Made by a program: the position numbers and the translations under genes. The notes beneath the pieces were generated by a model, which saw nothing but the letters and a program-made list of their open reading frames with translations, searched no databases and was not told where the DNA came from. A DNA stretch of 64,000 nucleotides from Kineosporia succinea (lineage in GTDB: Bacteria > Actinomycetota > Actinomycetes > Actinomycetales > Kineosporiaceae), in contig NZ_JAUSQZ010000001.1 in assembly GCF_030811555.1 (NCBI RefSeq), forward strand, positions 682,001 through 746,000, given 5' to 3'. Numbering within the stretch: the stretch's first letter is position 1; each line of letters starts with the position of its first letter. This document shows, one piece after another, positions 8,658 through 32,806 of this stretch.

Positions 8658-10910
<2,253 letters not shown>

Positions 10911-10973: not shown

Positions 10974-12518
10974 TCAGCCCTTGATGCCCGGGACCATGAA
11001 CGACGCCGCCAGGTCGAACTCCTTGACGTCGACGTCGTGCTCCACCAGGAACTCGCGAAGCACATCGATGGCCCGGCGCTTGAACGCGTTGTGGTAGACC
11101 CGCTCGTCGGCCGCGCCGAAGTGGTTACCGTTGGCCGCGGCGGCCGTTCGGTCGCGCAGGCTCGGCGCGGCGGCCCAGCTCAGGTCGTTGCGCTCCTCGA
11201 GCTGCTGGTCGAGGTCGATGCGGTCGGCCTTCTCCTGGCGGTCCATGCGGATCTTGCGCACGGCCCGCGACGGGCTGCCCCACAGCAGCGGCCAGACCAT
11301 CGGGAACACGGTGCGCAGCAACGGGAGCCGGTGCGCGCCCGGCCCCAGCGGGATCTTCACCACGTCGCCGTAGTCGGGCTTGAGCGGGCGCAGCGCGGTG
11401 ACCGCCATCTCCACCTCGAGCATCGGGCCCTGCTTCTCGACCCGGACGAAGAGCGTGACCACGACCTGGCCGTCCCAGCCGGTGACCTCGAAGTAGGTGT
11501 AGGGCCGGGCCGAGCGGTGCTGCTGGCGCATCGCCCGCTCGATGACCTCGGGCCGGACCTCGGACACCGGGCGGCGGAAGCGCAGCTCGTAGTCCTTGTC
11601 GGGCAGAACGGGGCCGTAGCGGAACAGGCCACCGACCGCGCGGGCGTGACCACCGATGACGTAGAGCCGGTGGCCGGTCTTGGGCTTGTTCTCCATCGTC
11701 AGCGGGATCTGCTCGAGCAGGTAGCGGTGCAGGTCGATGCTCTCGAACAGGCGCGGCTCGGAGCGCTTGCCCAGCCCGGGGTCGAGCGTGCCGACCCGGG
11801 TGTCGATGGTGAAGCTCCACTTGTCGATCTGCTCACCGGAGCCGTTGAACGGGGTAGCGCCGGCGAAGACGATCACGTTGGCCCGGCCCGAGCTGCGGAT
11901 CGGGCCCTCGATCTCCTCGGGCAGCGGCGGGGGCTCGACCGCGTTCAGGCCCTTGATGCCGATGGAGGCCAGCGCCGAGTCGTGCACGGCGCGGTAGTGC
12001 CACCAGATGATCGCGAATCCGGCCACGTACGAGCCGACCAGCGCGAAGAAGCCGAGCATGAGCAGGCCGCCCGCGCCCAGGTCGCCGGTGAAGATCGAGA
12101 CCAGGGCGATCTCGAGGATGATCGCGACCGCGGCGGTGACCACGAGCAGCCACAGGTCGCGGGTCTCGCGGCGCTGCTTGGCCTGGGCGGCGTGCCGGGC
12201 CAGGGCCACGGCGTCGACCTGCCAGTTCGGCGACATCGCCTTCCAGTCCGGGTAGACGAGGTCGTTGAGGACCTCGCCGCCGAACGAGGCGTTCAGGTGG
12301 ATGGCCGAGCAGAGCTGACGGGTGATGCCGTCGCCGGCCGGGGTGAACGGCTGCACGCGGCGGCCCGCACCGGGGCGGTTGCCCCACGGTGGCTGCAGGG
12401 CCTGCCGCACCCGCACCTCGGGCGGCTCACCGCCGGAGCTCCCGCCGGTGAGCAGGCGTGGCTTGTCGACGGCGGTCCTGCCGGCTCCGCCGTGTCGCGA
12501 AGTCTCCGAGGGCGGCAT
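10974..12518 (-). CDS. Uncharacterised membrane protein, copy A of a duplicated family
   Basis: 514 residues. About 140 N-terminal residues (Pro/Gly-rich, then PNWQVDAVALARHAAQA at about residue 110) precede two adjacent hydrophobic helices (about residues 138-160 and 168-190). A large, probably cytoplasmic domain with conserved stretches such as PFNGSGEQIDKWSF, RLYVIGGHARA and DGQVVVTLFVRVE follows. The C-terminus has HFGAADERVYHNAFKRR. The protein at 29115-30584 is a full-length homologue with matching blocks in the same order. I do not recognise the family. In both loci the gene is divergent from a sugar transferase gene, which suggests a role connected with polysaccharide initiation or its control. 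The ATG at 12518 has GGGAG six bases upstream. Confidence 0.75.
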   Translation of the reverse strand: MPPSETSRHGGAGRTAVDKPRLLTGGSSGGEPPEVRVRQALQPPWGNRPGAGRRVQPFTPAGDGITRQLCSAIHLNASFGGEVLNDLVYPDWKAMSPNWQVDAVALARHAAQAKQRRETRDLWLLVVTAAVAIILEIALVSIFTGDLGAGGLLMLGFFALVGSYVAGFAIIWWHYRAVHDSALASIGIKGLNAVEPPPLPEEIEGPIRSSGRANVIVFAGATPFNGSGEQIDKWSFTIDTRVGTLDPGLGKRSEPRLFESIDLHRYLLEQIPLTMENKPKTGHRLYVIGGHARAVGGLFRYGPVLPDKDYELRFRRPVSEVRPEVIERAMRQQHRSARPYTYFEVTGWDGQVVVTLFVRVEKQGPMLEVEMAVTALRPLKPDYGDVVKIPLGPGAHRLPLLRTVFPMVWPLLWGSPSRAVRKIRMDRQEKADRIDLDQQLEERNDLSWAAAPSLRDRTAAAANGNHFGAADERVYHNAFKRRAIDVLREFLVEHDVDVKEFDLAASFMVPGIKG

Positions 12519-12960
12519 TCAGGCTCCCTGCGTCGCTCAATGACCGTTGCTTGGTCGGCACCCGTCCCGACAGTAGTCAGCCGTCCAGACGCACACCCGG
12601 TCTAGATGATGCACCGTGTAATAGCGCAACAGCGACACCCCGGGGCGAGTCGCCCATCTTTCCCGCATCACATTCCGGATCGACCGGCAATGGACCCGGT
12701 GTTCAGTCGCATTGCCGTGCCGGTGCCGACCACTGAAAGACCCCGGAGATCACGCGAGCCTCAAGCGCCTCCCAATTCCGGGCAATTCACACATTCCACT
12801 GACCTGGAGCGATTCCATGTAACCAGCTGTGAATAACCGACCTCAAGCAGTGATGAATGCCCTAAGGTGTGATCGCCCGGACCACCGCTGAAGAGGTCTG
12901 CGACGAGCGGGCCGGGATTCCGAGATCGACCCGACTGGAGTGTTCTGGGGGTTTGTCCTG
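12519..12960. promoter_or_regulatory. Divergent intergenic region, membrane protein A / sugar transferase A
   Basis: 442 bases without a plausible gene. It is clearly AT-richer than the flanks between about 12770 and 12880, where promoters for the rightward sugar transferase are expected; TAAGGT near 12871 is a possible -10 element. No strong inverted repeat or tRNA is visible. Confidence 0.4.
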
Positions 12961-14682
12961 ATGTCGCGCCGCCAACGCTCCGGGGAAAAGACGAGCCCCA
13001 TCGGTCACGGCCTGCGCGTCAGCCCCGGCAAACGCGAGCGGCACTCTGAATTCACCGATCCCGGCGCCACCGCCGCACCGGGGCTTGTGGGCAGTGCGGG
13101 TGCAGCGTCAGGCTCGGGTGTCCCGGGTCCGGCCGGCCCGCCGGGCCCCGTGACCGGCGCCGCGGAGGCGCCGGACCGTCCGCCCGGTTCGCCCGCCGAC
13201 CCGCCGGCGTCGCGGGTCGACATGCCCGGGTCGTCGCGGCTCGACCCGCCCGGGTCCCTGAAGGGCCTGCCCCGGCACGCCGACATCGACGCCCGGGCCG
13301 CGCTCACCCGCTACCGCCACCACGTCGTCCTCGCTGATGCCCTCTGCGCCGGCGTCGCCGCCCTGTTGGCCGTGCTGCTGCGCTTCGACGGCGAGGCCCC
13401 CGGGTTCTGGTCGTGGGTGCCGATCGTGCTGCCGCTGATCTGGATCGGCATCGCCGGCATGGACCGGGTCTACGAACGCCGCTTCCTGGGCGCCGGCACC
13501 GAGGAGTTCCAGCGGGTGCTGCGCTCGGGCGTGGTGCTGTTCGCGGCCATCGCCGTCACGTCGTTCCTGTCCAAGGCGTACGTGTCGCGCTCGGTCGTGG
13601 TCTTCGCGGTGCCCGTCACCGTGCTCGGTGCCCTGGCCGTGCGCAAGGTGCTGCGGATCCGGCTGCACCACGCCCGCGCGGCCGGCATCGGCCTGGAGCG
13701 CACCATCGTGCTGGGTGACGCCGAGGGTGCGCTCGAACTCGTGCACCTGCTGCGGCACAACACCCACCGAGGCATGGTGCCGGTCGGCATCTGCCTGGCC
13801 ACCAGCCCGGTGACCCCCAGCGACATGGACGGGGTGCCGGTGATGGGGGGCCCGGCCGACGTGCTCGAGGCGGTCGAGGCCACCCAGGCGCACGTGGTGG
13901 CGGTGGTGTCGCACCCCGATCTGTGGGGCCATCCCCTGCGTGAGCTGGCCTGGGCCCTCGAGGACCTCGACGTGGAGCTCATCGTCTCGCCCGGCATCGT
14001 CGAGGTGGCCGGACCCCGACTGTCGATCCGCCCGCTGGCCGGACTGTCGCTGCTGCACCTCGAGCAGCCCACCGCCGACGGCGGGGACCTCCTGCTCAAG
14101 GCCGCCTTCGACCGGATCCTGGGCAGCGCGATCCTGCTCGTCCTCGCCCCGTTGCTGGCCGCGATCGCGATCGCGGTGCGGGTGACCAGCCCTGGCCCGG
14201 CCCTGTTCCGGCAGACCCGCGTGGGCGTGGGCGGCCGCGAGTTCTCGATCTACAAGTTCCGCTCGATGGTCACCGACGCCGAGCACCGCCTCGACGACCT
14301 CACCACCCACGACGAGGGCAACGGCGTCCTCTTCAAGATGCGCACCGACCCCCGCGTCACGCCCCTCGGGGCCCGGCTGCGCCGCTACTCGCTCGACGAA
14401 CTCCCCCAGCTCATCAACGTCGCCAGGGGAGACATGTCCCTGGTCGGCCCTCGCCCCCCGCTCCCCCGGGAGGTGGCCGGCTACTCCGACGACGCCGTGC
14501 GGCGCCTGCGCGTACGCCCCGGCATGACCGGCCTCTGGCAGGTGTCCGGCCGCTCCGACCTGAGCTGGGAGCAGTCCCTCCTGCTCGACCTGCGCTACGT
14601 GGACAACTGGTCGATGACCCTCGACCTCAGCATCCTCTGGCGCACCGTCCGGGCCGTGGTGAAGGGCAACGGCGCCTACTAG
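12961..14682 (+). CDS. Polyprenyl-phosphate sugar-1-phosphate transferase (exopolysaccharide initiation), copy A
   Basis: 573 residues. About 105 Pro/Gly-rich N-terminal residues are followed by four hydrophobic helices, a CoA-binding-3-like nucleotide domain (about residues 250-370), a further helix, and the bacterial sugar transferase domain. The last carries KFRSMVTDAEHRL, RYSLDELPQLINV, SLVGPRPPLP and RPGMTGLWQVSGRSDLSW, matching WbaP/CpsE/GumD-type enzymes that load the first sugar-phosphate onto undecaprenyl phosphate. The ATG at 12961 is preferred because GGGGG lies nine bases upstream; an upstream in-frame GTG at 12940 lacks one. It is closely similar to the enzyme at 31214 from about residue 130 onward, with the long N-terminus being the main difference. 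A repeat array begins 38 bases after the stop. Confidence 0.9.
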   Translation: MSRRQRSGEKTSPIGHGLRVSPGKRERHSEFTDPGATAAPGLVGSAGAASGSGVPGPAGPPGPVTGAAEAPDRPPGSPADPPASRVDMPGSSRLDPPGSLKGLPRHADIDARAALTRYRHHVVLADALCAGVAALLAVLLRFDGEAPGFWSWVPIVLPLIWIGIAGMDRVYERRFLGAGTEEFQRVLRSGVVLFAAIAVTSFLSKAYVSRSVVVFAVPVTVLGALAVRKVLRIRLHHARAAGIGLERTIVLGDAEGALELVHLLRHNTHRGMVPVGICLATSPVTPSDMDGVPVMGGPADVLEAVEATQAHVVAVVSHPDLWGHPLRELAWALEDLDVELIVSPGIVEVAGPRLSIRPLAGLSLLHLEQPTADGGDLLLKAAFDRILGSAILLVLAPLLAAIAIAVRVTSPGPALFRQTRVGVGGREFSIYKFRSMVTDAEHRLDDLTTHDEGNGVLFKMRTDPRVTPLGARLRRYSLDELPQLINVARGDMSLVGPRPPLPREVAGYSDDAVRRLRVRPGMTGLWQVSGRSDLSWEQSLLLDLRYVDNWSMTLDLSILWRTVRAVVKGNGAY

Positions 14683-14720
14683 AGCGCCCCGCCACCTGCC
14701 CCGTAAGCGTCCCGCCACAG

Positions 14721-15006
14721 CACGCGTCCCCTTCCAGCGTGCGTCCCCTTCCAATCACGCGCCCCCTCCCAAACGCACGCCCCCTCCCAGGCGCGTGTCC
14801 CCTTCCAAGCACGCGTCCCCTCCCAGGCACGCGTCCCCTCCCAGGCACGCGTCCCCTCCCAAACGCGCGCCCCCTCATAAGCACGCGCTCCTTCCAAGCA
14901 CGCGTCCCCTCCCAAACGCGCGCCCCCTCCTAAGCACGCGCTCCCTCCCAAGCACGCGCCCCCTCCCACACGCGCGCCCCCTCCCAAACGCGCGCCCCCT
15001 CCCAGG
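14721..15006. repeat. 18-bp tandem repeat array, 16 copies
   Basis: Sixteen head-to-tail units, fourteen exactly 18 bases and two 17 bases long, with consensus CACGCGYCCCCTCCCARR. Units differ mainly at the first two and last two bases, where CA..GG, CA..AG and CG..AA types alternate. Decayed copies continue to about 15030. There are no spacers, so it is not a CRISPR array. Read on the minus strand it would give Trp/Gly/Glu/Arg hexapeptides, but no translation signal supports that. Confidence 0.9.
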
Positions 15007-15116
15007 CACTTCTCCCTCCACGCACGCGCATCCCCGCACGCCACGCGAGCGAACGCGCGTCCCGCCCCCGCCCGAACCGCATCCCAACCGAACCGCGCAC
15101 CACCCGAAGCGAAAGT

Positions 15117-15152
15117 TCGGTGCTTTCGATTATCGATAATCGAAAGCACCGA
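15117..15152. promoter_or_regulatory. 36-bp perfect palindrome with AT-rich centre
   Basis: Bases 15117-15152 equal their own reverse complement over all 36 positions. The outer arms read TCGGTGCTTTCGAT and the centre is built on TTATCGATAA, strikingly AT-rich for this genome. It may be a binding site for a dimeric DNA-binding protein, or form a cruciform or hairpin. No convincing gene starts beside it. Confidence 0.8.
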
Positions 15153-15393
15153 CCATGCGCCGAGCCGCCATGCCGCTGACGGGTAAAGGCACGCGGGAGC
15201 GGATGAAGATTCGAGGACAGAGGCACCGCCGCCGAGGCAAGAAGGCTGCGGACGCGGCAGGGGCCCGGTGTCAGGCGTCCGGTTCGGCAGATCCGGCACC
15301 AGGTCAACGGTCCCGTGGCCTCTCGCCCGGCAGCACCGTGTCAGCCCGCCCGGCGCACGCCCGATCGATCCCCGGTGCCAGGCACCCGCCCGT

Positions 15394-15561
15394 CAGCCCT
15401 GAGCCCGGCAGCCCTGAACCCGGTAGCCCGGCAGCCCTGAACCCGGTAGCCCGGCAGCCCTGAACCCGGTAGCCCGGCAGCCCTGAACCCGGTAGCCCGG
15501 TAGCCCTGAACCCGGTAGCCCGGTAGCCCGGTAGCCCTGAACCCGGCAGCCCTGAACCCGG
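15394..15561. repeat. Compound tandem array of 15-bp and 8-bp units
   Basis: Eight 15-base units YAGCCCTGAACCCGG and six 8-base units YAGCCCGG; most alternate, giving a 23-base super-unit. The 8-mer is the 15-mer with seven internal bases (TGAACCC or an equivalent frame) missing, so both probably come from one ancestral motif. The array lies about 65 bases after the stop codon of the leftward FHA gene. Confidence 0.9.
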
Positions 15562-15627
15562 CACCGGCTCGATGGATCCCGGGTGCTGCATCTCTCCCGG
15601 TGATCCCGAAGCGTCGGGGCTCGGGCC

Positions 15628-16485
15628 TCAGTGGTCTTCGGGGTCGTCCTCGTGGTCGGGGCCGTCGACGCCGTCCGGATTGGCCGCGGCCACCGCGAAC
15701 CAGGTCTGGGCCTGGGCCAGGTCGGCGTGCGTGATCGTGCCGCTGCGGATGGCCCACATGGCCAGGGGCAGGCGGAAGTCCTCGGCGGCGTCGGGGCGCT
15801 CGCGGGAGACCAGTCCGGGCACGCCGTGGCTGTCGAGCTTCTCGCGCACCTGCTTGAACACGTTGCGCACATAACCAGGGCGGCGCCCGACCCGCTCGGC
15901 CACCTGGCGATAGGTCGCGGCGCTGGCCTCAGTGCCGGAGCGGGTCAGCAGCGGCTCGCACAGTGCGGTGAGCAGGCGGCGCTGGGCGGGCGTGAGGATG
16001 ATCGGCGGCACGACCACGGTCGGCGAGTCGTCGGACTCGTCGTCGACCTCGGACGGTGAGGGCGGCAGGCCCCGCGCGTCGACGTGCACGACGTAGTCGC
16101 GACCGAAGCGGCCGGTGACGATCACGTCGAACTGGCGCCAGGGCAGCGAGGTGGTGGCGGCGCCGGGCTCGACCGTGCGCGTGGCCCCGGTGGGCGGGCG
16201 CAACTGAAGCAGCTTCGACGAGGAGACGTTGCGGATCAGCACGCAGTCGGCCAGCACCCGCACCGTGGCCGCATGCCGGGAGACGTGGTCGTCTTCCGGC
16301 TCGTAGGCGATGCGCAGGTCGCAGTTGCGGCTACGGCCGATCGTGACCTCGTGACCCGGCGGCACGGCGCGGCGCTGCTGCCCCTCCGTCACGGAGAAGA
16401 GCACGGCGGCCGGCCCGGCCTCACCGAACGTCGGCTGGCTCATCGCGCCACTCGGCACCTGCTGGGTCATGACCGTCTGCCCCAT
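15628..16485 (-). CDS. FHA-domain protein with C-terminal winged-helix-like region
   Basis: 285 residues from ATG at 16485, chosen because GGAAGG lies nine bases upstream. An N-terminal FHA domain (about residues 25-125) shows VTIGRSRNCDLRI and VSRHAATV, which carry the Gly-Arg, Ser and Ser-x-x-His positions of phosphothreonine-binding FHA domains. After an acidic linker with DDESDDSPTVVV, a region of about 80 residues (LTPAQRRLLTALCEPLL, TYRQVAERVGRRPGYVRNVF) resembles a DNA-binding helix-turn-helix of the type seen in other actinobacterial FHA proteins. This suggests a regulator read out by Ser/Thr kinase phosphorylation. No kinase gene is nearby. Confidence 0.8.
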   Translation of the reverse strand: MGQTVMTQQVPSGAMSQPTFGEAGPAAVLFSVTEGQQRRAVPPGHEVTIGRSRNCDLRIAYEPEDDHVSRHAATVRVLADCVLIRNVSSSKLLQLRPPTGATRTVEPGAATTSLPWRQFDVIVTGRFGRDYVVHVDARGLPPSPSEVDDESDDSPTVVVPPIILTPAQRRLLTALCEPLLTRSGTEASAATYRQVAERVGRRPGYVRNVFKQVREKLDSHGVPGLVSRERPDAAEDFRLPLAMWAIRSGTITHADLAQAQTWFAVAAANPDGVDGPDHEDDPEDH

Positions 16486-16758
16486 CCGCGCAGTCCTTCC
16501 CGGGAAGTCCGCGCCCTGCACACATGGCTCCCACTTTCGCTCATTCGCCCGGATCTGTCACCGGTCACCGCAAGGTACGGCACGAACAGCCCATTGACGA
16601 CGGAAAGAAAGTGGTGAGCCGATGTGATCTCGGCGATCGGCTAAGACCTTCGCACTGCATCCACATTGCATCGACACTCCCCTGCTGGGGCAAAGACTCT
16701 GCAGCAGAGCAGGACTCGGCATCCGCTCGGCCACTCGACGAGACCCCCGCGAAGGCGA

Positions 16759-16789
16759 GTATCCACCCGACCCCTGTGCGGGTGGATAC
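16759..16789. other. Perfect 11-bp stem-loop
   Basis: GTATCCACCCG (16759-16769) and CGGGTGGATAC (16779-16789) flank a 9-base loop. It lies about 270 bases upstream of the FHA gene start and 205 bases beyond the end of the coiled-coil gene. It may be a terminator for an unrecognised short transcript, or a protein-binding site. A further partial copy of the arm (GGATACC) occurs shortly after it. Confidence 0.55.
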
Positions 16790-16935
16790 CGCCCCATGAG
16801 GCAGCAGTGACTTATGGATACCCCTGGCAACCAATGAGCGGCCGGTCAATTCAGGACAACCCGAGAGGCTAATTCCGGGTAGTGCAGGGGTGCATCGAGA
16901 GCGCTCGGTGAGGGCATGGTCGCTCCGGGACAAAG

Positions 16936-16974
16936 CACCGTTCCCCGGCACCTGTCAGGTACCGGGGAACGGTG
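16936..16974 (-). terminator. Terminator hairpin of the coiled-coil membrane operon
   Basis: The 39-base element has 13-bp outer arms CACCGTTCCCCGG and CCGGGGAACGGTG, then an inner 5-bp stem ACCTG/CAGGT around a single T, interrupted only by one C/A mismatch. It begins 22 bases after the leftward stop at 16996. Confidence 0.8.
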
Positions 16975-16995
16975 GTGACTCCTCGAGCGGTCCGG

Positions 16996-19900
16996 TCAGC
17001 GGACCGTCTCGTCGTGATCGGCCTGGGCCTCCGCCTCGGGGGCGCCACCCTGCACCGGGATCTGCCCGGTGAAGGGCATCAGCGCGCCCGGCGGCTTGCC
17101 GTGACCGATCACCGCGGTGAACCCGCCGCGCGGACGGCGGGTGGGGCGCCGTCCCCAGAACCCGGTACGCGGTGCCTCACCGGCGGACGGGCGCTTCTCG
17201 CCGAGGGTCTGCACCTCGCCGCCGACCCGCTCGCCCGGGGTCATCCAGCGCGGCCGGATCTCCGGGGCGGGCCGGGCGTCCTCGAACTCAGGCTGCGGCT
17301 CGTCCGTGCCGGGCCCGGCAGCCGGCAGCACCGGCAGCACCGGCAGGGGGATCGGGTTGGTCGGGGGCGAGTCCACGTCACTGATGGTGGACGCGTCGGT
17401 CGCCTCGGTCTCCCCGGCCACCTGGGCGCCGAGGTCGGCTTCGGCGGCGAGGTCCTCGGCGAGGTGCGCCGTCGGCTCGTCGAAGCGCTCGTCGTCCCGT
17501 CCGTCGAACCTCTCGTTGCTCGGCTCGGCGGAACGGCCGCTCAGCAGCGGGAGGTCGATCGGGCCGGAGATGGCGTCCTTGGTCAGGCCGGCGTGTCCGC
17601 CGGGACGACGGGCCGAGACCGGCTCGGTCCGCGGCCCGGGCGGCTGGATCAGCGAGCGCAGCGCCTGCACCGGACGATCGTCCCGGACCGGGGCGCTCCA
17701 GCTCCGGTCACGGCCCGGGTCACGGTCACTGCCCGGGTTGCCGTTCCGGTCGCCACCACGGTCGCCACCACGGTCGTCGCCACGGCCACTGCTGCGGTCG
17801 GTGACGCGGTCGGTGCCATGGTGGCCGCCCTGGTCGGTGCGGGCCCACCAGGATTCGGCCCCGCCCCGGGCGGCGAACAGATCGACGCCGAGACCGGCGT
17901 GCGCGGCCACCGGGACCCCGGCGGGCTGGACCTGGCGGTCCTCCCGCTCGATGCGGGTCAGGTCGATGTGGTGCGGCATCTCGAGCGGACGCAGGTCGAT
18001 CGACCGCATCGCCCCGGCCACCTCGGCGGCCACGTCGGCCGAGTCGAGGTCGATGGGCCGGGCCGCGAGCGCGGACGTGTCCATCTTCCTCAGCGCCTGC
18101 AGCACCCGCCGGGCCTCCGAGGCCCGCTCGGCCGCCTGCGCCCGGAACTGCGCCGCCGCCCGGAACTCCTCGGCCGCCAGCTCGCGCTGGGTGCGCAGCT
18201 CGTCGGCCTCGGCCCGCAGCCGCTCGGCCCGCTCCCGCTCGAAGCGCAGCTGCTCGACCCGGGCCCGGGCCACCTGCTCCAGTTCCAGCCGGGCCTGGCC
18301 GGCCAGATCCTGCTCACCCAGTTCCCGGTCGGCGCGGGCCTGCTCGGTCCGCACCAGCTCCAGGCGCTCACGCTCGGCCAGCTCGACCTCGAGGCGCTGG
18401 ATCCCGGCCAGTTCCCGCTCCCGCAGGGCCCTCTCGGCCTCCTCGATCTCGGCCCGCAGCCGCGCCAGACGCTCTTCCTCGGCCCGCTCGGCCGCCGCCT
18501 GCTCGGCGGCGAGACGGGCGGCACGCTCGGCCTCGGCGCGCTCGAGACGCATCGCCTCGGCCCGCTCCTGCTCCTCGCGCACCCGCTCGGCCTCTTCGAG
18601 CTCCGCCCGCAGCCGCGCCAGACGCTGTGCCTCGACCCGCTCGGCCGCCGCCTTCTCCGCCGCGACCCGCGAGGCCGCGGCCCACTCCTGCACGGCCCAC
18701 TCGGCGCGGGCCCGCTCGACACCGGCCTGCTCGGCGGCGGCCCGGGCCTGCGCCCGCTCCGCCTCCTCCACGACCGACCGTTCCCGGGAAGCCTTCTCGG
18801 CCGCCCGCTTCGCCTGTGTCGCCGCGAAGAACACCGGCTCCAGCTCGGGCGAGGGCTCCTCGTCGGAGTCACTCAGCAGCGGCGCGGCGAGCGGGTCGGA
18901 CAAGGGGTCGGACAGGACGTCGCCCGCCCCGTCCTGAGCCTCGGCTGCCTCCCGGTCGGCCGCCTCGAGGTCGACAGAGGAGCCGACGGAGGAGGCGACA
19001 GAGGACCCGTCGACGGTCACCGGGCCCGACACGGCTCCGGACACGAGGTCGGCCGCGGCCACCGTCGCAGCTCCGACTCCCGACCCGGCACCGTCCCCGG
19101 CCGTCGCGGCCGCAGCTGACGCACCGGCCACCGCGGTCGTCCCGGTCTCTGCCCCGGCCACCCGCTCGCCCGGGGCACGACCCTCGAGGCCCTCCCGGGC
19201 GGCACCGGAATCAACCGGGCCACGCACCGAACCATCCACCGGACCACGCACCGAACCGCCGGCCGGGACGTCATCGGGGACCGACGCGTCCTCAATACCG
19301 GACCCGACGCCCTCCGAAGCCGCACTCGCGACCTCGGCCTCACGCACCGAGGACCCCGCGGGAACCAGGCGCATCGGCCCGGTCGCGCCGCGCACGTCCA
19401 CCACCGCGACCTCGTCACCCGCCGGGATCCCCTCGCGGGCGTCAGCCGAAGCCGCGTCGTCCGCCGGACGCCCGACCGTCGACGCGTCACGCAGGTCGAT
19501 CACCGGCGCCGGCTGGGTCTCGTCGAGACGGGACACGAAACCGGTGCGCGGGGCCAGCGCGTCCTCGAAGTCGTCGTCGGCCAGGTCGGGCACGGCCTCG
19601 AGGGCCCGCACCGCGGCCAGCTCGTCGTCGTCCTCGAGCATCGACACCAGGTCGGCGACGGACTCGGCCGACAGCAGCAGCTCTTCCGTGGAAACGTCTT
19701 TCGCCCCACGTACCGCACCCGTGGGCACCCCGACCGCGGGCACCTCCCCGGTCGGCACCGACACCAGACGGCGCGGCTTCGGACCGGATCCGGGCGTCGG
19801 CATCTCCTCGACGCTGTCGTCGAGACGGCTGCGGCGCTCACCCATGATCTGGCGCTGGAAGCTGACGGCCCGCACCCACACGTCCGTCACCTCGACCTCG

Positions 19901-20370
19901 CCCGGCTCCGGCGCGGCGTAGGGCCAGAACGGGCCGCCCGGCGGCAGCAGACTGCCCGGGCCCACCGCACTGATCAGACTGCTGGCCAGCGCACTGTCGA
20001 GCACCGGACGGCTGCTCGCGTGCCGCCCGGCCTTGGGGCGCCGGCCCACGCGGGCCACCCGGTCGCAGAAGTCGATCATCGCGAAGACGCGGAAGTCGTT
20101 GACGTCGATCTCGCCCATGCGCACCGCGTCGACCAGGTCGTCACGCAGCACCGCAGCCTGGTGACGGCGCGAGCTACGGCGCACCGCACGCACCACCAGC
20201 ACCACGAGGACCAGCAGCAGCGCAGCCACGGCAACTCCGGTCACGGCCAGGCCCTGCTCCGGATGCAGCTCGAGATGGTCACGGGTGCGCACGGCGGAAT
20301 CAGCCGCGCCGTCGAACATCTCGGTGGCGAGCCGGCGCACGTCGGCCGCCCTCGCACTGAAGTCGCTCAT
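16996..20370 (-). CDS. Large single-pass membrane protein with long coiled coil
   Basis: 1124 residues. A short N-terminus precedes one strong membrane helix (about residues 40-63). A conserved-looking segment of about 100 residues follows (DLVDAVRMGEIDVNDFRVF, DFCDRVARVGRRP), then acidic, Ala/Val/Ser-rich disordered sequence to about residue 510. A Glu/Ala/Arg-rich continuous coiled coil covers about residues 515-765, and a disordered tail has Asp-Arg-Gly repeats and ends in acidic sequence. The shape is that of a cytoplasmic scaffold anchored at the membrane, possibly for polar growth, division or chromosome organisation; this is an inference from architecture only. Its ATG overlaps the stop of the 90-aa membrane gene by four bases. 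Confidence 0.75.
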   Translation of the reverse strand: MSDFSARAADVRRLATEMFDGAADSAVRTRDHLELHPEQGLAVTGVAVAALLLVLVVLVVRAVRRSSRRHQAAVLRDDLVDAVRMGEIDVNDFRVFAMIDFCDRVARVGRRPKAGRHASSRPVLDSALASSLISAVGPGSLLPPGGPFWPYAAPEPGEVEVTDVWVRAVSFQRQIMGERRSRLDDSVEEMPTPGSGPKPRRLVSVPTGEVPAVGVPTGAVRGAKDVSTEELLLSAESVADLVSMLEDDDELAAVRALEAVPDLADDDFEDALAPRTGFVSRLDETQPAPVIDLRDASTVGRPADDAASADAREGIPAGDEVAVVDVRGATGPMRLVPAGSSVREAEVASAASEGVGSGIEDASVPDDVPAGGSVRGPVDGSVRGPVDSGAAREGLEGRAPGERVAGAETGTTAVAGASAAAATAGDGAGSGVGAATVAAADLVSGAVSGPVTVDGSSVASSVGSSVDLEAADREAAEAQDGAGDVLSDPLSDPLAAPLLSDSDEEPSPELEPVFFAATQAKRAAEKASRERSVVEEAERAQARAAAEQAGVERARAEWAVQEWAAASRVAAEKAAAERVEAQRLARLRAELEEAERVREEQERAEAMRLERAEAERAARLAAEQAAAERAEEERLARLRAEIEEAERALRERELAGIQRLEVELAERERLELVRTEQARADRELGEQDLAGQARLELEQVARARVEQLRFERERAERLRAEADELRTQRELAAEEFRAAAQFRAQAAERASEARRVLQALRKMDTSALAARPIDLDSADVAAEVAGAMRSIDLRPLEMPHHIDLTRIEREDRQVQPAGVPVAAHAGLGVDLFAARGGAESWWARTDQGGHHGTDRVTDRSSGRGDDRGGDRGGDRNGNPGSDRDPGRDRSWSAPVRDDRPVQALRSLIQPPGPRTEPVSARRPGGHAGLTKDAISGPIDLPLLSGRSAEPSNERFDGRDDERFDEPTAHLAEDLAAEADLGAQVAGETEATDASTISDVDSPPTNPIPLPVLPVLPAAGPGTDEPQPEFEDARPAPEIRPRWMTPGERVGGEVQTLGEKRPSAGEAPRTGFWGRRPTRRPRGGFTAVIGHGKPPGALMPFTGQIPVQGGAPEAEAQADHDETVR

Positions 20371-24236: not shown

Positions 24237-24261
24237 GCACGCATCCTAGAAGGAGCTCCTC

Positions 24262-24648: not shown

Positions 24649-24695
24649 CAGCCCGGCGGGGGACGTGGCGGTCACCGGAGCGCCGACCGCCACGT

Positions 24696-25817: not shown

Positions 25818-25836
25818 GACCGGTCAACTCCCTGTT

Positions 25837-25860
25837 TTTACTCGAATCCAGAGTTTAATA
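25837..25860. promoter_or_regulatory. AT-rich imperfect inverted repeat between ROK and MFS genes
   Basis: TTTACTC and GAGTTTAA flank a 7-base centre in the 42-base gap between the ROK and MFS genes. The sequence is AT-rich in a 72% GC context and lies next to the MFS start, so it is a candidate operator/promoter. Confidence 0.5.
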
Positions 25861-27119
25861 TGAAGCACGTGTCCAGCCCCACCCGCACCTGCGTAGCCTC
25901 GCCCCCCGCCACCACAGCGCCGGACCGCCCCAACTATGCCGCGCTGTTCGTCCTCGCGACGTGCTCGTTCATCTACGTCACCGCCGAGATGCTCCCCGTC
26001 GGCCTGCTCCCGCAGATCAGCGCCGACCTGAACGTCACCGAGGCCCAGGTCGGCCTGCTGCTCACCTCCTACGCCGCGGTCGCCGCCGTCACCACCATCC
26101 CGATGACGGCCCTGACCATGCGCTTCACCCGCAACCGGCTGCTGGCCGGCACGCTCGCCGTGTTCGTGGTGGCCCAGCTGGTGGCCGCGCTGGCCCCGTC
26201 GCTCACCGTTCTGTCGATCACCCGGATCTTCTCGGCCGCCGCGCACGGCGTGTTCTGGGCGATCGTGGCCCCGATCGCCGCGCGGCTGGCCCCGCCCGGG
26301 CAGACCGGCAAGGCCACCTCGATCGTCTTCACCGGGTCGGCGGTGGCCATGGTGCTCGGCGCCCCGATCGGCACGGTGATCGGCCAGGCCTCCAGCTGGC
26401 GGGTGGCCGTGGTCACGGTCGGCGTGGTGGGTGCGCTCAGCCTGCTCTGCATCCTGCTGATCGTGCCGAAACTGCCGGTGCTGCCGAGGGACGCCGCCAA
26501 GACCACGGTCGGTCAGCTCGCCGCCGCGGGGCGCCAGATCCGCTCGCGGGCCACGTTGCCGGGGTGTCTCATCACCCTCACCGCGGTGATCGGCCAGTTC
26601 GCCGCCTACACCTACGTCGCCCCGCTGGTGCGGCGCGACGCCGGGCTCGACGGCCGGGCCCTGGCCGTGCTGCTGCTGGCGTTCGGGGTGGCCGGCGTCG
26701 TCGGCAACGTGCTGGCCGGGCGCTTCATCGACCGCCGCCCCGACCTGGTGATGATGGCGATCTTCGGCACCATGTCCGTGTCGATGGCCGTGCTCGTCGG
26801 CACGCCGGGTGCGGTGGTCACGGTGATCGCGGTCGTCTTCTGGGGCCTGTCCTCGTCGCCGATGTCGATGTCCCTGCAGGCGGCCGTGATCCGGCGGGCC
26901 CCACGCACTCAGGACGCGGCCGCCTCGGTGCAGGTCGTCGCGTTCCAGATCGGCATCGGCGGGGGCGCCTTGATCGGCGAGCGCCTCTACGGCCACGGCT
27001 TCCTGGTGCTGCTGCCGGTGTTCGGCGCGGTGATGACGGCCCTGGCGCTGCTACTTGCCTTCCGGGCCAAGGAGACGTTCCCCCGTCACCCGGTGCCGCA
27101 CGTCGACGCCACGCACTAG
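25860..27119 (+). CDS. MFS transporter (drug/sugar efflux type)
   Basis: 419 residues from ATG at 25860, with twelve hydrophobic helices beginning at about residue 30 (FVLATCSFIYVTAEMLPVGL). That start resembles the AraJ/YdhP/NepI-type efflux branch of the MFS. No ribosome binding site precedes 25860, so the mRNA may be leaderless; an in-frame GTG at 25869 is the alternative. It is controlled in all likelihood by the divergent ROK repressor. Its stop overlaps the convergent GH15 gene by four bases. Confidence 0.85.
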   Translation: MKHVSSPTRTCVASPPATTAPDRPNYAALFVLATCSFIYVTAEMLPVGLLPQISADLNVTEAQVGLLLTSYAAVAAVTTIPMTALTMRFTRNRLLAGTLAVFVVAQLVAALAPSLTVLSITRIFSAAAHGVFWAIVAPIAARLAPPGQTGKATSIVFTGSAVAMVLGAPIGTVIGQASSWRVAVVTVGVVGALSLLCILLIVPKLPVLPRDAAKTTVGQLAAAGRQIRSRATLPGCLITLTAVIGQFAAYTYVAPLVRRDAGLDGRALAVLLLAFGVAGVVGNVLAGRFIDRRPDLVMMAIFGTMSVSMAVLVGTPGAVVTVIAVVFWGLSSSPMSMSLQAAVIRRAPRTQDAAASVQVVAFQIGIGGGALIGERLYGHGFLVLLPVFGAVMTALALLLAFRAKETFPRHPVPHVDATH

Positions 27120-28942
27120 GACCTGTCTTCGCTCCGGTCGAGCCCGGCCACCGCCAGCACCGCGTCGATGTGCGACAGGTGACTCAGCCCCTGGGGCAGG
27201 TTGCCCAGGAAGTCCCCGGTGGCCGGGTCGATCATCTCGGCGAAGATCCCCACGTCGTTGGTCAGGGCGTTCATCTGCTCGAGGAGCTCGCGGGCCTCGT
27301 CGCCCCGGCCCACCGCGACCAGGGCCGACACCATCCAGAACGAGCAGGTCACGAAAGCGCCCTCCTCGACGCGCATCCCGCTGTACCGGTAGAGCAGCGG
27401 CCCCTCGCCCAGCTCGGAGCGCAACGCGTCGATCGTCGACGACATCCGCGGCCCGGTGTCGAACCCGCACAGCGCCCCCTGCAGCACCGACGCGTCCAGC
27501 TCGTCGGAGCCCGCGAACCAGGTGTACGCCTGCCGCGACGACGACCAGCAGAACTCCTCGATCCAGGCCCCGATCCGGTCGCGCTCGGCCCGCCAGCGCT
27601 CCACCGGGCCGGGCAGCTGCCCGAACTCCGACGCCAGCACCACCGCACAGTCGAGAGCCTGCCAGCAGCCCATTTTCGACGACGTGTAGTGCTGGTCGTC
27701 CTCCAGCTCCCAGATCCCGGCGTCGCGCTGCTGCCAGGTGTCGCAGCAGTGGTCGGCCAGACCCGCCAGCAGCCGCGAGGTCCCGAGGTCGAGCACGTGC
27801 CCGGCCTCGACGTAGCTGCGCACCACCGAGAACAGGTCACCGAACATCCCCAGTTGCTGCTGCCCGGCGGCACGGTTGCCCGTCACCACCGGCTGGCTGC
27901 CCTTCCAGCCGGGCACGTCCGCGTAGGTCCGGGAACCGGGCAGGTCACCGTTGAGCCGGTAGAACACCTGCAGCCCGTTGCGCCGGATCGTGGCCAGCAG
28001 CCAGGCGACCGCGGCGTGCACCTCCTCGCGCAGCCCGAGGCGGATCAGGGCGTCGAGCGTGTACGCGGTGTCGCGCACCCAGGTGTAGCGGTAGTCCCAG
28101 TTCTTGCCGCCCGCCGGGTTCTCCGGCAGCGAGGTGGTGGCCGCGGCCGCGATCGCCCCGGTCGGGCTGTGCAGCAGCAGTTTCAGCACCAGGGCGCTGC
28201 GCAGCACCTCGTCGGCGTAGGGGCCGTCGTAGCCGACCTGCCCGGTCCACTCCTGCCAGCCGGCGATCGAGCGGTCGATCCGGGCGTCGATGTCGTCGAC
28301 GTGGGCCAGGTTCAGCGGTTCGGAGTGGGTCCCGACCACCGCGACCAGGTGCCGCGATCCGCCCGAGGTCTCGAAACGTCCAGCGATCTGCTGCTCCTCG
28401 ACCTCGGCGGAACCCGCGTCGCGCAGCCGCACCGCCATCATGACCTCGTCCATGCGCAGCACCGGCCCGTGCGCCGTGTCCTCCACCCAGGGCGAGTACC
28501 CGCCCAGCCCACTGCCCGCCCGCACCCGCCAGGCCATCGGCACGCTGCCCTCGAGACCCTCGACGCGGCGCGCCAGTTCGGCCCAGGGCAGGCGCCCGGC
28601 GACGCCGCTGTTCAGCGAGTCGGTGACCCGTACGCGCCCGCGGGCGGTGGTGTAGGTCGTCTCGACCACGTTGGTACCTCGCACGTACCGGCGTTCCACG
28701 GTCCAGTCGACGGTGGGCGCCAGTTCGAGCCGGCCGCCGTCCTCGGCGTCGAGCAGGGCCGCGAACGGCGGCGCCGAGTCCAGGTCGGGCACCGGGAACC
28801 AGTCCACCGAGCCGCCGCGGCTCACCAGGGCGACCGTGCGCCCGTCGCCCAGGGCGGCGTAGTCGCGCAGGTCGCGGTAGTCGGTGGGGTCGGTGCGGCG
28901 GCCGAGGCTGGGTGTCGAGGGTGAAGCGGACGGGGTGGTCAC
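27116..28942 (-). CDS. Glycoside hydrolase family 15-like protein (glucoamylase/trehalase type)
   Basis: 608 residues. An N-terminal beta-sandwich region (DYAALGDGRTVALVSRGGSV near residue 28, with VDWFPVPD) precedes an (alpha/alpha)6 catalytic region with NWDYRYTWVRDTAYTLDAL and a C-terminal stretch NNLPQGLSHLSHID-like (GNLPQGLSHLSHIDA). These are standard for actinobacterial cytoplasmic GH15 enzymes acting on trehalose or alpha-glucans. There is no signal peptide. Start GTG at 28942. Substrate (trehalose or dextrin) is not decided by sequence here. Confidence 0.85.
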   Translation of the reverse strand: MTTPSASPSTPSLGRRTDPTDYRDLRDYAALGDGRTVALVSRGGSVDWFPVPDLDSAPPFAALLDAEDGGRLELAPTVDWTVERRYVRGTNVVETTYTTARGRVRVTDSLNSGVAGRLPWAELARRVEGLEGSVPMAWRVRAGSGLGGYSPWVEDTAHGPVLRMDEVMMAVRLRDAGSAEVEEQQIAGRFETSGGSRHLVAVVGTHSEPLNLAHVDDIDARIDRSIAGWQEWTGQVGYDGPYADEVLRSALVLKLLLHSPTGAIAAAATTSLPENPAGGKNWDYRYTWVRDTAYTLDALIRLGLREEVHAAVAWLLATIRRNGLQVFYRLNGDLPGSRTYADVPGWKGSQPVVTGNRAAGQQQLGMFGDLFSVVRSYVEAGHVLDLGTSRLLAGLADHCCDTWQQRDAGIWELEDDQHYTSSKMGCWQALDCAVVLASEFGQLPGPVERWRAERDRIGAWIEEFCWSSSRQAYTWFAGSDELDASVLQGALCGFDTGPRMSSTIDALRSELGEGPLLYRYSGMRVEEGAFVTCSFWMVSALVAVGRGDEARELLEQMNALTNDVGIFAEMIDPATGDFLGNLPQGLSHLSHIDAVLAVAGLDRSEDRS

Positions 28943-29030
28943 GCCCCAACTGTCGGGTGAGCCGGGGGTTCCGGCGATTCGGTGCGTGGTCCGGCCGCCG
29001 GTTTCGCGGTGATTGGTTCACAAAAATGAT

Positions 29031-29102
29031 GGACGCGGCGGTCGCCCATCGCCGGGAACCCCACCTTCGGTTCCGTCCCCGACCCGGGCGACCGCCGCGT
29101 CC
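29031..29102 (-). terminator. Long nested hairpin downstream of membrane protein B
   Basis: Perfect 17-bp arms GGACGCGGCGGTCGCCC (29031-29047) and GGGCGACCGCCGCGTCC (29086-29102). Inside the 38-base loop is a second stem, GGAACC/GGTTCC. It starts 13 bases past the leftward stop at 29115 and is a strong terminator candidate. Confidence 0.8.
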
Positions 29103-29114
29103 GCCGTTGACGCC

Positions 29115-30584
29115 CTAGGCGCCGGAGGCCGCGCCGTAGATGCCGCGGGCGTTCTCGTTGGTGTGGCTGATGATGTCGGCGCTCTGCCCGGCGAACTCGG
29201 CCTGATCAACACCCCGTGTCTGCAGGAAGATGCCGATGCACTCCATCGTGCGCCGCACGAAGGCCTGGTAGTAGACCTCCTCGTCGGCGGCCGCGAAGTG
29301 CTCGCCCAGGTCGAAGTTCGTGACCTGCTCGCGCAGGCTCTTCACCGCCCCGAAGTCGACGTCGCGCCGGTGCTCGATCTCGGCGTCGGCCTCGGACGCG
29401 TTCGCCGCCCGCAGCCGGGCCGCCCGGGCCTTCTTCAGCACCTCCGACGGCGCGTTCAGCAGCAGCGCGGTGGCGTCGTGCAGGGCGATCGGCCCCAGCT
29501 CGCGCAGCTCGGCACCGGAGGAGGTGTCGAGGTCGTTCACCTCGTACAGCTGCGGGTGCAGCGGCCGCAGCGCGTACACCTGCCCCTCCACGAAGAGCGT
29601 CTGGTTCGCCACCCAGGCCCGCACGAACAGCGAGACCACCACCTGCCCGCCCAGCGCCGACTGCTGGAAACAGGTGTAGGTGCGCGCACTCTCGTCGCGC
29701 CGGTCGAAGTACGGCCAGAGCGTGGCCGCGTGCACGACGGTGCTGGGGCGGCGCCAGTTCAGTACCTCGTCCATGTCCAGACGCGGCTCCAGCGGACCCT
29801 GCCGGTACAGGTCGACCGACAGCGCGCCCTGGCCACCCCGCACGTAGAGCCGGTGGTGCCCCGACGGACGCGGGCTGATCCGCCCCGGCAGCAGCTCCAG
29901 CAACGCGATCTGCAGGTCGGCCCCGGTGATCCCGGGCCCACCCGCCTCGCTACGCCTACTGATGTCGAGCGTCATCTGCCAGGTGTCGAGCTTGACCCCG
30001 GAGCCCACGAAAGGCGCTGCGTCGGAACGGTAGAGCACGGCGTTGCAGTGGTTCAGGTCGTACAGCGCCTCCTCGGTGGACCGCCGGCGCAGGGGCGGCG
30101 GCGGGTCTTCCCCGGGGTCGCGGGCCACCGAGATCGCCGCCCGGCGGGCCGAGCGCAGCCCGAACCAGACGATGCCGGCCGCGGCCCAGTAGGCGCAGAA
30201 GAGCAGGAACAACACGAAGAGCACGAACTGGAAGAGGTTGAAGACGCCGCTCAGGGTGAGGATCAGGCCGAGCACGGCGATCCCCGCCACGTAGAAGAGC
30301 TCGGTGTTCAGCCACCGGTCACGGCTCGTGCGCAGCCCCTGGGCCCGGGCCGCGTGCCGGGCCAGGGCCACCACGTCGACCTCCCAGTTCGGGGTCAGCG
30401 CCCGCCGCGAGGGGGTCAGCAGGTGCGTCTGCGCCGCGTCGGCGATGTCGTCGTGCAGGTAGCAGGCGGCACACAGCAGTCTCGTCACCAGGTCGTCGGG
30501 TGCCGCCTGCTCCTGGTGGATGTCGTCGGGCGGAGCCAGGTGCCTGCCTGCCGAAGCGGCACCCGTCGCCATGTTCACAGTCAT
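29115..30584 (-). CDS. Uncharacterised membrane protein, copy B of a duplicated family
   Basis: 489 residues from ATG at 30584, chosen because AGGTGAG lies six bases upstream (an in-frame start at 30632 is possible). Like the protein at 10974-12518 it has PNWEVDVVALARHAARA, a pair of hydrophobic helices (about residues 105-155), PFVGSGVKLDTWQ, HRLYVRGG, GGQVVVSLFVRAW and a C-terminal HFAAADEEVYYQAFVRR. Order and spacing match across the whole length, so these are true paralogues rather than sharing one domain. Function unknown. The divergent neighbour is the sugar transferase copy B, as in copy A. Confidence 0.75.
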   Translation of the reverse strand: MTVNMATGAASAGRHLAPPDDIHQEQAAPDDLVTRLLCAACYLHDDIADAAQTHLLTPSRRALTPNWEVDVVALARHAARAQGLRTSRDRWLNTELFYVAGIAVLGLILTLSGVFNLFQFVLFVLFLLFCAYWAAAGIVWFGLRSARRAAISVARDPGEDPPPPLRRRSTEEALYDLNHCNAVLYRSDAAPFVGSGVKLDTWQMTLDISRRSEAGGPGITGADLQIALLELLPGRISPRPSGHHRLYVRGGQGALSVDLYRQGPLEPRLDMDEVLNWRRPSTVVHAATLWPYFDRRDESARTYTCFQQSALGGQVVVSLFVRAWVANQTLFVEGQVYALRPLHPQLYEVNDLDTSSGAELRELGPIALHDATALLLNAPSEVLKKARAARLRAANASEADAEIEHRRDVDFGAVKSLREQVTNFDLGEHFAAADEEVYYQAFVRRTMECIGIFLQTRGVDQAEFAGQSADIISHTNENARGIYGAASGA

Positions 30585-31213
30585 CGGTCGCTCACCTGCA
30601 CTCCCCAGTGCGTCCACGGCCAGGCCCGCCAAGCCCGGTCGCCGCCGGTCCGCGCGTCCGCCTGCGGGAGCCCATCTCCCCCCGCCCGGACCGGTCGGTG
30701 CAAATCACCATCAATCACTCATTGCGACCAGTCAATACCTCCACGCCGCAGCGGCCCGGCACTTGGTGTACCTTTCTGATTGCACTCAGTGATTGATCAG
30801 TACGCACCAATCAGCCGGCCAGGGAAGGCGACGGCGGTCCGCCCGGTTCTTTCCGGCCCGCCCCGACGCCGTTCACCCAGGCGCCGGGCAGCCTCCGGAA
30901 TCCGGGTTCCCTCCGCCGGAACAGCTGATGACACCCGCCGGGACATCACCCCCGCCCCCGCCTCGGCACCGCTTTGCCCAGTGCGGATCGGGGGCAGTGA
31001 AACCCCCCGGGTACGCATCGGCCGATCGGTGACCCCGGTTATCCCCCAGGTGAGCCTCACGGCCCGCCCGAACGGTTCCGAACGTCGCCATTCACGGAAA
31101 GTTCGCACACCGCAAGATCATTCGTCCTAGCCTGAGCATCGGGTTCCGACGTCGGCCAATGGGGGTCAGCACCGGGTCGGACCGTTTTCCGTGCCGTGGG
31201 GGGCCGAATACCG
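30585..31213. promoter_or_regulatory. Divergent intergenic region, membrane protein B / exopolysaccharide operon
   Basis: 629 bases without a plausible gene. AT-rich clusters of CAATCA/TGATTG boxes occupy 30701-30814 (listed separately). The rightward sugar transferase start at 31214 is preceded by a GGGGGG run. The rest shows no strong structure. Confidence 0.5.
30701..30814. promoter_or_regulatory. Cluster of CAATCA/TGATTG boxes
   Basis: Two inverted repeats share this stretch: ATCAATCACT (30710-30719) against AGTGATTGAT (30788-30797), perfect over ten bases, and CTGATTG (30776-30782) against CAATCAG (30808-30814). Additional AATCACC and GTCAATAC elements lie between. The grouping, in a low-GC patch upstream of both divergent genes, is typical of a multi-site operator. 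Confidence 0.55.
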
Positions 31214-32806
31214 ATGTCCGTGTCCGAGGCTTCAGGAGCAGGCCTGACCGTCGAAGAACTCGTCGCCCGGAGAGGGCCGGCCACGTCCGTCCCGCATGCC
31301 CGGGAACCTCTGGCGCCGGTCGTTCCCACGGTGCTCGAGGCCACTTTCGACGAGTTGCTGGTGCCGTCGTGGCGCACCGGGCAGGCCATCACCCGCCGCC
31401 TGGAGCGCCCGCGCACCCTGCTCTCCCGTTACAGCCGGTACGCGCTGACGGGCGATGTGGTGGTCGGCGCCCTGGCCGCGGCTCTCGCCGTACGGGTGCG
31501 GTTCCACACGATTCCCGACACCTACCTCGCGCTGCCGGTGCTGCTGCCGGCCACCTGGGTCGTGATCAACTGGCTCTACCGCACCTACGAGCGCCGCTAC
31601 GTGGGCTCCGGGCCCGACGAGTTCGTGCGCATCGCGCGGGCCGGGCTGATCCTGTTCGCCAGCGTCGCCGCCGTGGCCTACAGCCTGAACGGCAACTTCC
31701 CCCGCACCCTGGCCCTGATGTCGGTGCCGTTCGCGGTGCTCGGCAGCATGACCGTGCGCTGCCTGCTGCGCGCCGCCCTGCACCGCGCCCGCTCCACCGG
31801 GCGCGGCCTGCACCGCACGGTCGTGGTCGGCCGCAGCGACGCCGCGATCGCGCTGATCGAGCAGCTGCGCCACACCGAGAACTCGCTGCACCACGCCATC
31901 GTGCCGGTCGGGGTCTGCCTGCCCGCCGCCGAGGTCACCCCCTCCCACGTGCACGACGTGCCGGTGCTGGGCACACCCGCCGAGGTGCTCGACGCGGTGA
32001 GCCGGGCCGGGGCCGACGCGGTCGCGGTGGTCTCGCAGCCCGACCTGTCCGGGCACGCGCTGCGCCGCCTGTCCTGGGCCCTCGAGGACCGCGGGGTCGA
32101 GCTGCTGGTCTCCCCCGGCATCGTCGAGGTGGCCGGGCCCCGGCTCTCGATCCGCCCACTGGCCGGGATGTCGCTGCTGCACCTGGAACGGCCGGTGCTC
32201 AAGGGCACCCGGCGCGCGCTCAAGGTGGCCTTCGACTACAGCGCCACCCTGGTGCTGCTCACCCTGCTCGGCCCGCTGATGCTGGCCCTGGCCCTGGCCG
32301 TGCGGCTGACCAGCCGCGGCCCGGCGCTGTTCCGGCAGACCCGCGTCGGCACCGACGGCCGCGAGTTCACCGTGTACAAGTTCCGCTCGATGGTGATCGA
32401 CGCCGAGGCCCGGCTGGCCGCCCTGGCCACCGCCGACGAGGGCAACGGCGTGCTGTTCAAGATGCGCCACGACCCCCGGGTCACCCGGATCGGGCGGGTG
32501 CTGCGCCGCTACTCGCTCGACGAGCTGCCGCAGCTGCTGAACGTGTTGCGCGGCAACATGTCCCTGGTCGGCCCGCGTCCCCCGCTCCCCAGCGAGGTGG
32601 CGGGCTACTCCCCCACCGAGGTGCGCCGGCTGCGGGTACGGCCGGGCATGACCGGTCTCTGGCAGGTCTCCGGTCGCTCCGACCTGACCTGGGAGGAGTC
32701 GCTGCGGCTCGACCTGCGCTACGTCGACAACTGGTCGCTGGCGCTCGACCTGTCCATTCTCTGGCGCACCGTCCGCGCCGTCACCCAGGGCTCGGGAGCC
32801 TACTGA
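31214..32806 (+). CDS. Polyprenyl-phosphate sugar-1-phosphate transferase, copy B (first gene of exopolysaccharide operon)
   Basis: 530 residues with four N-terminal hydrophobic helices, a nucleotide-binding-like middle domain (about residues 195-315) and the sugar transferase domain. The latter shows KFRSMVIDAEARL, RYSLDELPQLLNV, SLVGPRPPLP and RPGMTGLWQVSGRSDLTW. The C-terminal half is nearly identical to the copy at 12961. It probably starts repeat-unit assembly on undecaprenyl phosphate. Start ATG 31214 has a GGGGGG run about 11 bases upstream. The next gene begins two bases after its stop codon. Confidence 0.92.
   Translation: MSVSEASGAGLTVEELVARRGPATSVPHAREPLAPVVPTVLEATFDELLVPSWRTGQAITRRLERPRTLLSRYSRYALTGDVVVGALAAALAVRVRFHTIPDTYLALPVLLPATWVVINWLYRTYERRYVGSGPDEFVRIARAGLILFASVAAVAYSLNGNFPRTLALMSVPFAVLGSMTVRCLLRAALHRARSTGRGLHRTVVVGRSDAAIALIEQLRHTENSLHHAIVPVGVCLPAAEVTPSHVHDVPVLGTPAEVLDAVSRAGADAVAVVSQPDLSGHALRRLSWALEDRGVELLVSPGIVEVAGPRLSIRPLAGMSLLHLERPVLKGTRRALKVAFDYSATLVLLTLLGPLMLALALAVRLTSRGPALFRQTRVGTDGREFTVYKFRSMVIDAEARLAALATADEGNGVLFKMRHDPRVTRIGRVLRRYSLDELPQLLNVLRGNMSLVGPRPPLPSEVAGYSPTEVRRLRVRPGMTGLWQVSGRSDLTWEESLRLDLRYVDNWSLALDLSILWRTVRAVTQGSGAY

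Follow-up and report, generated by a model that had tools for sequence, protein, structure and literature searches.

We know of few proteins that govern how exopolysaccharide assembly begins at the membrane, and to our knowledge no head-to-head membrane partner is part of the transferase families of the WcaJ and WbaP kind. The closest described enzymes to those analysed here are the exopolysaccharide polyprenyl glycosylphosphotransferases of family TIGR03025. Two transferases encoded in a 64,000 nt stretch of the Kineosporia succinea genome (contig NZ_JAUSQZ010000001.1, positions 682,001 to 746,000; hereafter the window) are members of this family by cut-off, and differ from WcaJ (TIGR03023) and WbaP (TIGR03022) in scoring under both cut-offs. 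Our best reading is that the window holds two copies, A and B, of a Kineosporia-specific module in which a membrane protein gene lies head to head with the gene of an initiating sugar-1-phosphate transferase. A head-to-head partner that was kept through duplication represents a concrete candidate controller of exopolysaccharide initiation.

The wider family of the membrane protein recalls a second described system. In published BASS pairs, a membrane-targeting BELL protein and an NLR are encoded by adjacent or overlapping genes, and one motif recurs C-terminally in the BELL protein and N-terminally in the NLR (PMC7889193, PMC8086366). As in the BASS pairs of PMC7889193, tagged relatives of the membrane protein share a short motif that is C-terminal in the membrane-associated protein and N-terminal in its neighbour; they appear to differ in having a small partner in place of the long NLR, and membrane proteins A and B are themselves tagless. 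Membrane A and B are best read as a tagless Kineosporia offshoot of this tag-matched two-gene family that was recruited beside an initiating transferase.

Joint duplication of a membrane gene and a transferase gene

The two pairs and their shared 5' regions are arranged as follows.
10974..12518, (-) strand: membrane protein A, 514 aa, with two transmembrane helices, an alpha+beta domain predicted to be cytosolic and helices at the C-terminal end; tagless at the C-terminus
12519..12960, unstranded: 5' region common to both genes of pair A; blocks are conserved across the five Kineosporia genomes aligned
12961..14682, (+) strand: transferase A, with PF02397 and CoA_binding_3 domains, TIGR03025; SLDELPQ and KFRSM present; start codon unsure
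29115..30584, (-) strand: 489-aa membrane protein B, homologous to A
30585..31213, unstranded: 5' region common to both genes of pair B; blocks are conserved across six Kineosporia genomes
31214..32806, (+) strand: transferase B, with PF02397 and CoA_binding_3 domains, TIGR03025; SLDELPQ and KFRSM present

Both pairs are head to head, with start codons 442 bp (A) and 629 bp (B) apart. A sequence-only reading of the window had described the membrane genes as full-length homologues, each divergent from a close transferase paralogue and each without a recognised family. All of this was borne out: membrane A and B share 34% identity over 445 aligned amino acids (E 1e-64), the transferases are 60% identical over 465 aligned amino acids, and neither membrane protein has a Pfam or NCBIfam match above cut-off. 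The membrane reading frames are open throughout and are terminated by stops.

Pair conservation was assessed in the window's genome and its five nearest relatives of the same genus (G001-G005). At both loci, the membrane gene was head to head with its transferase in all six Kineosporia genomes, the A locus of G005 being read from two separate stretches. Amongst the 13 genomes of the taxonomic family, seven carry a membrane-family member at E<=1e-5, namely the six Kineosporia genomes and a further genome, G008. In a 53-row tree of the membrane family, A and B form sister clades (support 100/98), and the unpaired G008 member is the nearest outgroup of A+B (support 99/97). The transferases of A and B are likewise sisters, with support of 92/79 in a tree of 63 rows and 99/97 in one of 48 rows, from which 15 of the 63 rows had been dropped (long branches, and the copy C transferase of the window's genome, described below). 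Approximately unbiased (AU) tests on the transferases rejected A+C (p-AU 0.0018) and B+C (p-AU 9e-5), for groups that were named after the tree had been seen and with copy C of the window's genome left out. Since A and B are sisters in both the membrane and the transferase trees, the trees and synteny show one pairing event, followed by one joint duplication of the pair before the six genomes diverged.

The transferases are well supported as enzymes of the TIGR03025 family, with scores of 411.8 (A) and 420 bits (B) against a cut-off of 295.55, and PF02397 scores of 220.2 and 227.2 bits against a cut-off of 27. Scores for TIGR03023 (317.3 and 324.6; cut-off 410.75) and TIGR03022 (313.6 and 314.8; cut-off 403) fall short. 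Both transferases contain the Asp-Glu pair within SLDELPQ, which we take to be the active-site dyad of PF02397 transferases. A long N-terminal extension had been proposed as a feature that sets transferase A apart; the extension is present (about 111 aa) but does not distinguish the copies, as transferase B has one of about 66 aa.

It should be noted that genes were predicted with a simple caller that picks starts by composition, and are not an annotation. The start of membrane A is supported by PPSETSRH or PPSKTSRH recurring in the orthologues compared, and that of transferase B by SVSEASGA or SVSEVSGA. For membrane B, TVNETTG recurs in the orthologues and reads TVNMATG in the window, where the GTG of the relatives is an ATG. 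The start of transferase A is unsure because the ATG at 12961 is not conserved: four Kineosporia relatives were compared, and two of them have T or R at this position.

Tag-matched small partners in the wider membrane family

Profile searches, alignments and the 53-row tree place membrane A and B, by homology of their core, in a broad actinobacterial family, a member of which was found at E<=1e-5 in 66 of the 394 genomes of the class. Leaving aside A, B and the G008 member, 46 of 53 members have an open reading frame (ORF) of <320 aa within 400 bp downstream on the same strand; the remaining seven do not. The small partners are 84-313 aa in length, with 34 of the 46 between 105 and 145 aa, and in 11 of 46 cases the two genes overlap by 4 bases.

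The Gly-rich tail at the end of the membrane protein, compared over its final 60 residues, matches the first 60 residues of the small partner, pair by pair. The mean local score of tail against head was 63.4 for cognate pairings and 29.9 for shuffled pairings, and none of 5000 shuffles reached the cognate value; control comparisons gave means of 20.9 (an inner membrane-protein segment) and 23.1 (the partner C-terminus). When all 46 heads were ranked, the cognate one came first for 19 of 46 members; set only against the heads of members <35% identical, it came first for 32 of 46. Against composition-shuffled heads, p was <=0.01 in 37 pairs and above 0.01 in nine of the 46. When one member was taken per 45% identity cluster, p was <=0.01 in 21 of 26 and the cognate head ranked first in 19 of 26. 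Some heads were possibly cut by the start choice of the gene caller. By these comparisons, the tags differ between lineages and agree within each pair. Tag-matched pairs occur across stretches L070-L131, for example at L103:7538-9651, L109:7425-9326 and L090:4545-6323.

Membrane A and B have neither a C-terminal tag nor an adjoining small partner gene. In alignment, the end of membrane B resembles the start of the G008 tail, and may be a tag relic. A distinct third Kineosporia subfamily (L004:4701-6934, L079, L081) is also tagless; its members are followed not by a tag-matched small protein but by a protein of 155-203 aa that looks discoidin-type by eye, with no family call.

One of five small partners scanned exceeded the cut-off for DUF5955 (PF19380; 29.8 against 27.1 bits), two matched weakly and two did not match. 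No such gene lies beside membrane A or B, and the Pfam entry gives no function. Amongst the five small partners and five tagged or related membrane members scanned, there was no Pfam match to NLR, BELL, CHAT or TIR, and we judge the small partners too short for an NLR. Assignment to a defence system was rejected: PADLOC on nine proteins gave three weak matches, the best of which was to mad3 (E 0.00064, 17.4 bits, 33 residues of one tagged membrane protein), and P0001 and P0002 had none. Our searches returned no literature on DUF5955, or on Kineosporia with this transferase. Neither the membrane family nor tag matching was found described in the searches made, nor in the covered parts of PMC8086366, PMC7889193, PMC12261475, PMC8195603 and PMC13118837, a weak statement given that few subscription papers were covered.

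The wider family points to an actinobacterial gene-pair system based on tag matching, which by analogy may resemble amyloid signalling but with a small protein where BASS pairs have the NLR. It is conceivable, though rather doubtful as a whole, that the parent family constitutes a new NLR-less, tag-matched membrane signalling pair present in several actinobacterial families, in which a membrane protein whose soluble domain has no assigned fold recruits or templates, by a beta-forming tag at its C-terminus, a small DUF5955-like protein that bears a matching tag specific to the lineage, and that one Kineosporia lineage lost the tag, was rewired to an initiating transferase, was duplicated and now controls glycan initiation. 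As the lineage beside the transferase has no tag, such partner switching can be tested.

Possible roles of the membrane protein beside the transferase

The structural model of membrane A (mean predicted local distance difference test score, pLDDT, 83.7) contains two long helices at residues 103-144 and 149-186, into which its hydrophobic segments fall, followed by a mixed alpha/beta domain at about 200-390 and C-terminal helices. The membrane B domain, modelled alone (mean pLDDT 80.9), repeats this succession of elements but for an additional short helix. Under the positive-inside rule, positively charged residues face the cytoplasm. Because such residues flank the membrane hairpin on both sides, the alpha+beta domain is predicted to be cytosolic.

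Foldseek returned recurrent weak matches to START/SRPBCC (PR10-like) helix-grip folds for both the whole A model (best E 0.029) and the B domain (best E 0.07), none of them at E<=0.001; amongst the 50 matches listed per search, the target TM-score was <=0.37 with a large root-mean-square deviation. A search with the family profile gave no match to a solved structure at E<=1. The likeness to this fold consists of weak matches without significance, and assignment to START/SRPBCC or to any other fold was rejected.

Both pairs have glycan genes beside them in all six Kineosporia genomes. The neighbouring genes in the window are listed below.
8658..10910, (-) strand: PMT_2/YkcB-like glycosyltransferase with PMT_2 and YkcB_C domains, downstream of membrane A on the same strand; kept there in 6/6 Kineosporia genomes
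27116..28942, (-) strand: GH15 glycoside hydrolase, downstream of membrane B; adjoins B in 3/6 genomes only
32832..34163, (+) strand: GT4-type glycosyltransferase, after transferase B; kept there in 6/6 Kineosporia genomes
34160..34822, (+) strand: WcaF-like gene (a label from the sequence-only reading), with Hexapep only, under the Pfam cut-off; place kept in 6/6 Kineosporia genomes

The GH15 gene is probably not part of the B module, because it lies next to membrane B in only three of the six genomes. The earlier suggestion that copy A has no further operon genes applies to transferase A and fails for membrane A, which is followed by the PMT_2/YkcB-like gene in all six.

The trees and synteny show that, in an ancestor of the six Kineosporia genomes, a family member without tag and small partner lay beside a transferase gene, and that this pair was then duplicated. 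We propose that the membrane protein would form a two-helix hairpin in the cytoplasmic membrane with its alpha+beta domain in the cytoplasm. There it would act on the adjacent transferase or on the lipid-linked product, at the cytoplasmic face, as an accessory factor or regulator of glycan initiation, a proposal that we hold tentatively and consider almost as probable as improbable. Module A would serve a glycan whose handling involves the PMT_2/YkcB-like enzyme, and for module B the GT4 and WcaF-like genes would take that place; the shared 5' regions would allow separate control of the expression of both genes. Membrane A and B may be an anchor, partner or regulator of polysaccharide initiation, as the sequence-only reading had suggested.

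Several observations weigh against a dedicated module of this kind. Contact between the membrane protein and the transferase is inferred. Synteny is general in this region across the genus, so that the counts of six in six are not independent cases, and the AU-test groups were chosen post hoc, as noted above. A regulatory element common to both 5' regions was rejected, the best 21-mer identity between them being no better than in shuffles in four of five genomes (reached or exceeded in 98, 85, 36 and 39 of 100 shuffles in these four, and in 2 of 100 in G003). Copy C has no adjoining membrane-family gene, and no transferase was present in the stretch examined around the G008 member, the nearest outgroup. 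Beyond Kineosporia A and B, none of 54 distinct family members has a PF02397-like gene within 5 kb, on recount and by tblastn check; for six of the 54, less than 5 kb of sequence was available on one side. The total derives from 67 family genes counted, less 12 A/B rows (10 distinct copies, two duplicated) and one repeat of the G008 member, and the neighbourhoods examined were the regions of better-scoring places in the genome searches. One member, in L097, has such a gene at 5.8 kb, and L097 was the only non-A/B stretch to be matched by tblastn with both Bac_transf domains. In five further stretches (L071, L083, L105, L108 and L121) the caller found no family gene, and the same tblastn found no transferase. 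The genome of K. succinea (8.07 Mb, one contig) has three membrane-family members and four PF02397 genes; no PF02397 gene occurs in the 15 kb around the third member, at 4.21 Mb, and two of the four PF02397 genes have no membrane-family neighbour. A role for the family as a general companion of PF02397 was therefore rejected (0/54 within 5 kb). The proposal that the two proteins have been kept as a pair stands within Kineosporia, with both loci intact in six of six genomes after a joint duplication, and falls as a general rule: the sequence-only reading had itself named a family lacking a sugar transferase in most genomes as grounds for refutation, and this is what the 54 other members examined show within 5 kb.

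In the main rival explanation, the genes are mere neighbours that share a common 5' region, a segmental duplication carried both, and the function of the membrane protein is unrelated to the transferase. The lack of PF02397 genes near the other 54 family members, the two PF02397 genes without a family neighbour and the high regional synteny in the genus all speak for this explanation, which we regard as a serious possibility, though somewhat improbable given that both genes were retained at both sites after the duplication in all six genomes, even where the surroundings of the B pair changed (GH15 being next to B in only three of six). A further alternative makes the PMT_2/YkcB-like glycosyltransferase the main associate of membrane A, with the transferase as a secondary neighbour. 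The two genes are adjacent on the same strand in all six genomes, and the downstream gene carries PMT_2 and YkcB_C domains; however, membrane B has no such gene downstream, and what A and B have in common is the transferase, leaving this explanation unlikely. Lastly, membrane A and B could retain the ancestral function of the tag-bearing family by using an unlinked partner in trans, consistent with the core that is conserved between A, B and the tagged members. We find this very hard to credit: no head of a small partner is a good fit for the A and B tails, which score at best 34 and 28 where cognate pairs average 63, and a PF19380 search of their own genome was empty, though the profile is weak for these partners. 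Recruitment of a tagless family member beside an initiating transferase remains our best reading of the two loci.

Copy C and other genes of the region

The third close transferase of the window's genome lies elsewhere on the chromosome.
L191:7310-8644 (G000:C1 about 1525312-1526655, G000 being the window's genome): copy C transferase

In the transferase tree, the Kineosporia copies of C group with other genomes of the taxonomic family, and the neighbourhood of copy C is common to the six Kineosporia genomes, G006, G008 and G011. From their sequences, we presume the neighbours to be rplY, pth, cysQ, cysD and cysN. The copy C of the window's genome carries SLDGLPQ and SFRCT, and the other five Kineosporia copies carry SLDELPQ and KFRSM. 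Because it thereby lacks the Asp-Glu motif and KFRSM, copy C may be inactive in this genome, in which case the close paralogues still intact would be A and B.

Two further genes of the window were noted. Between the two loci, positions 16996-20370 encode a protein of 1124 aa without a Pfam match. A gene at 15628-16485, which runs convergently to transferase A in those Kineosporia genomes that were compared, has a sub-threshold Pfam match only, and its product appears FHA-like by eye.

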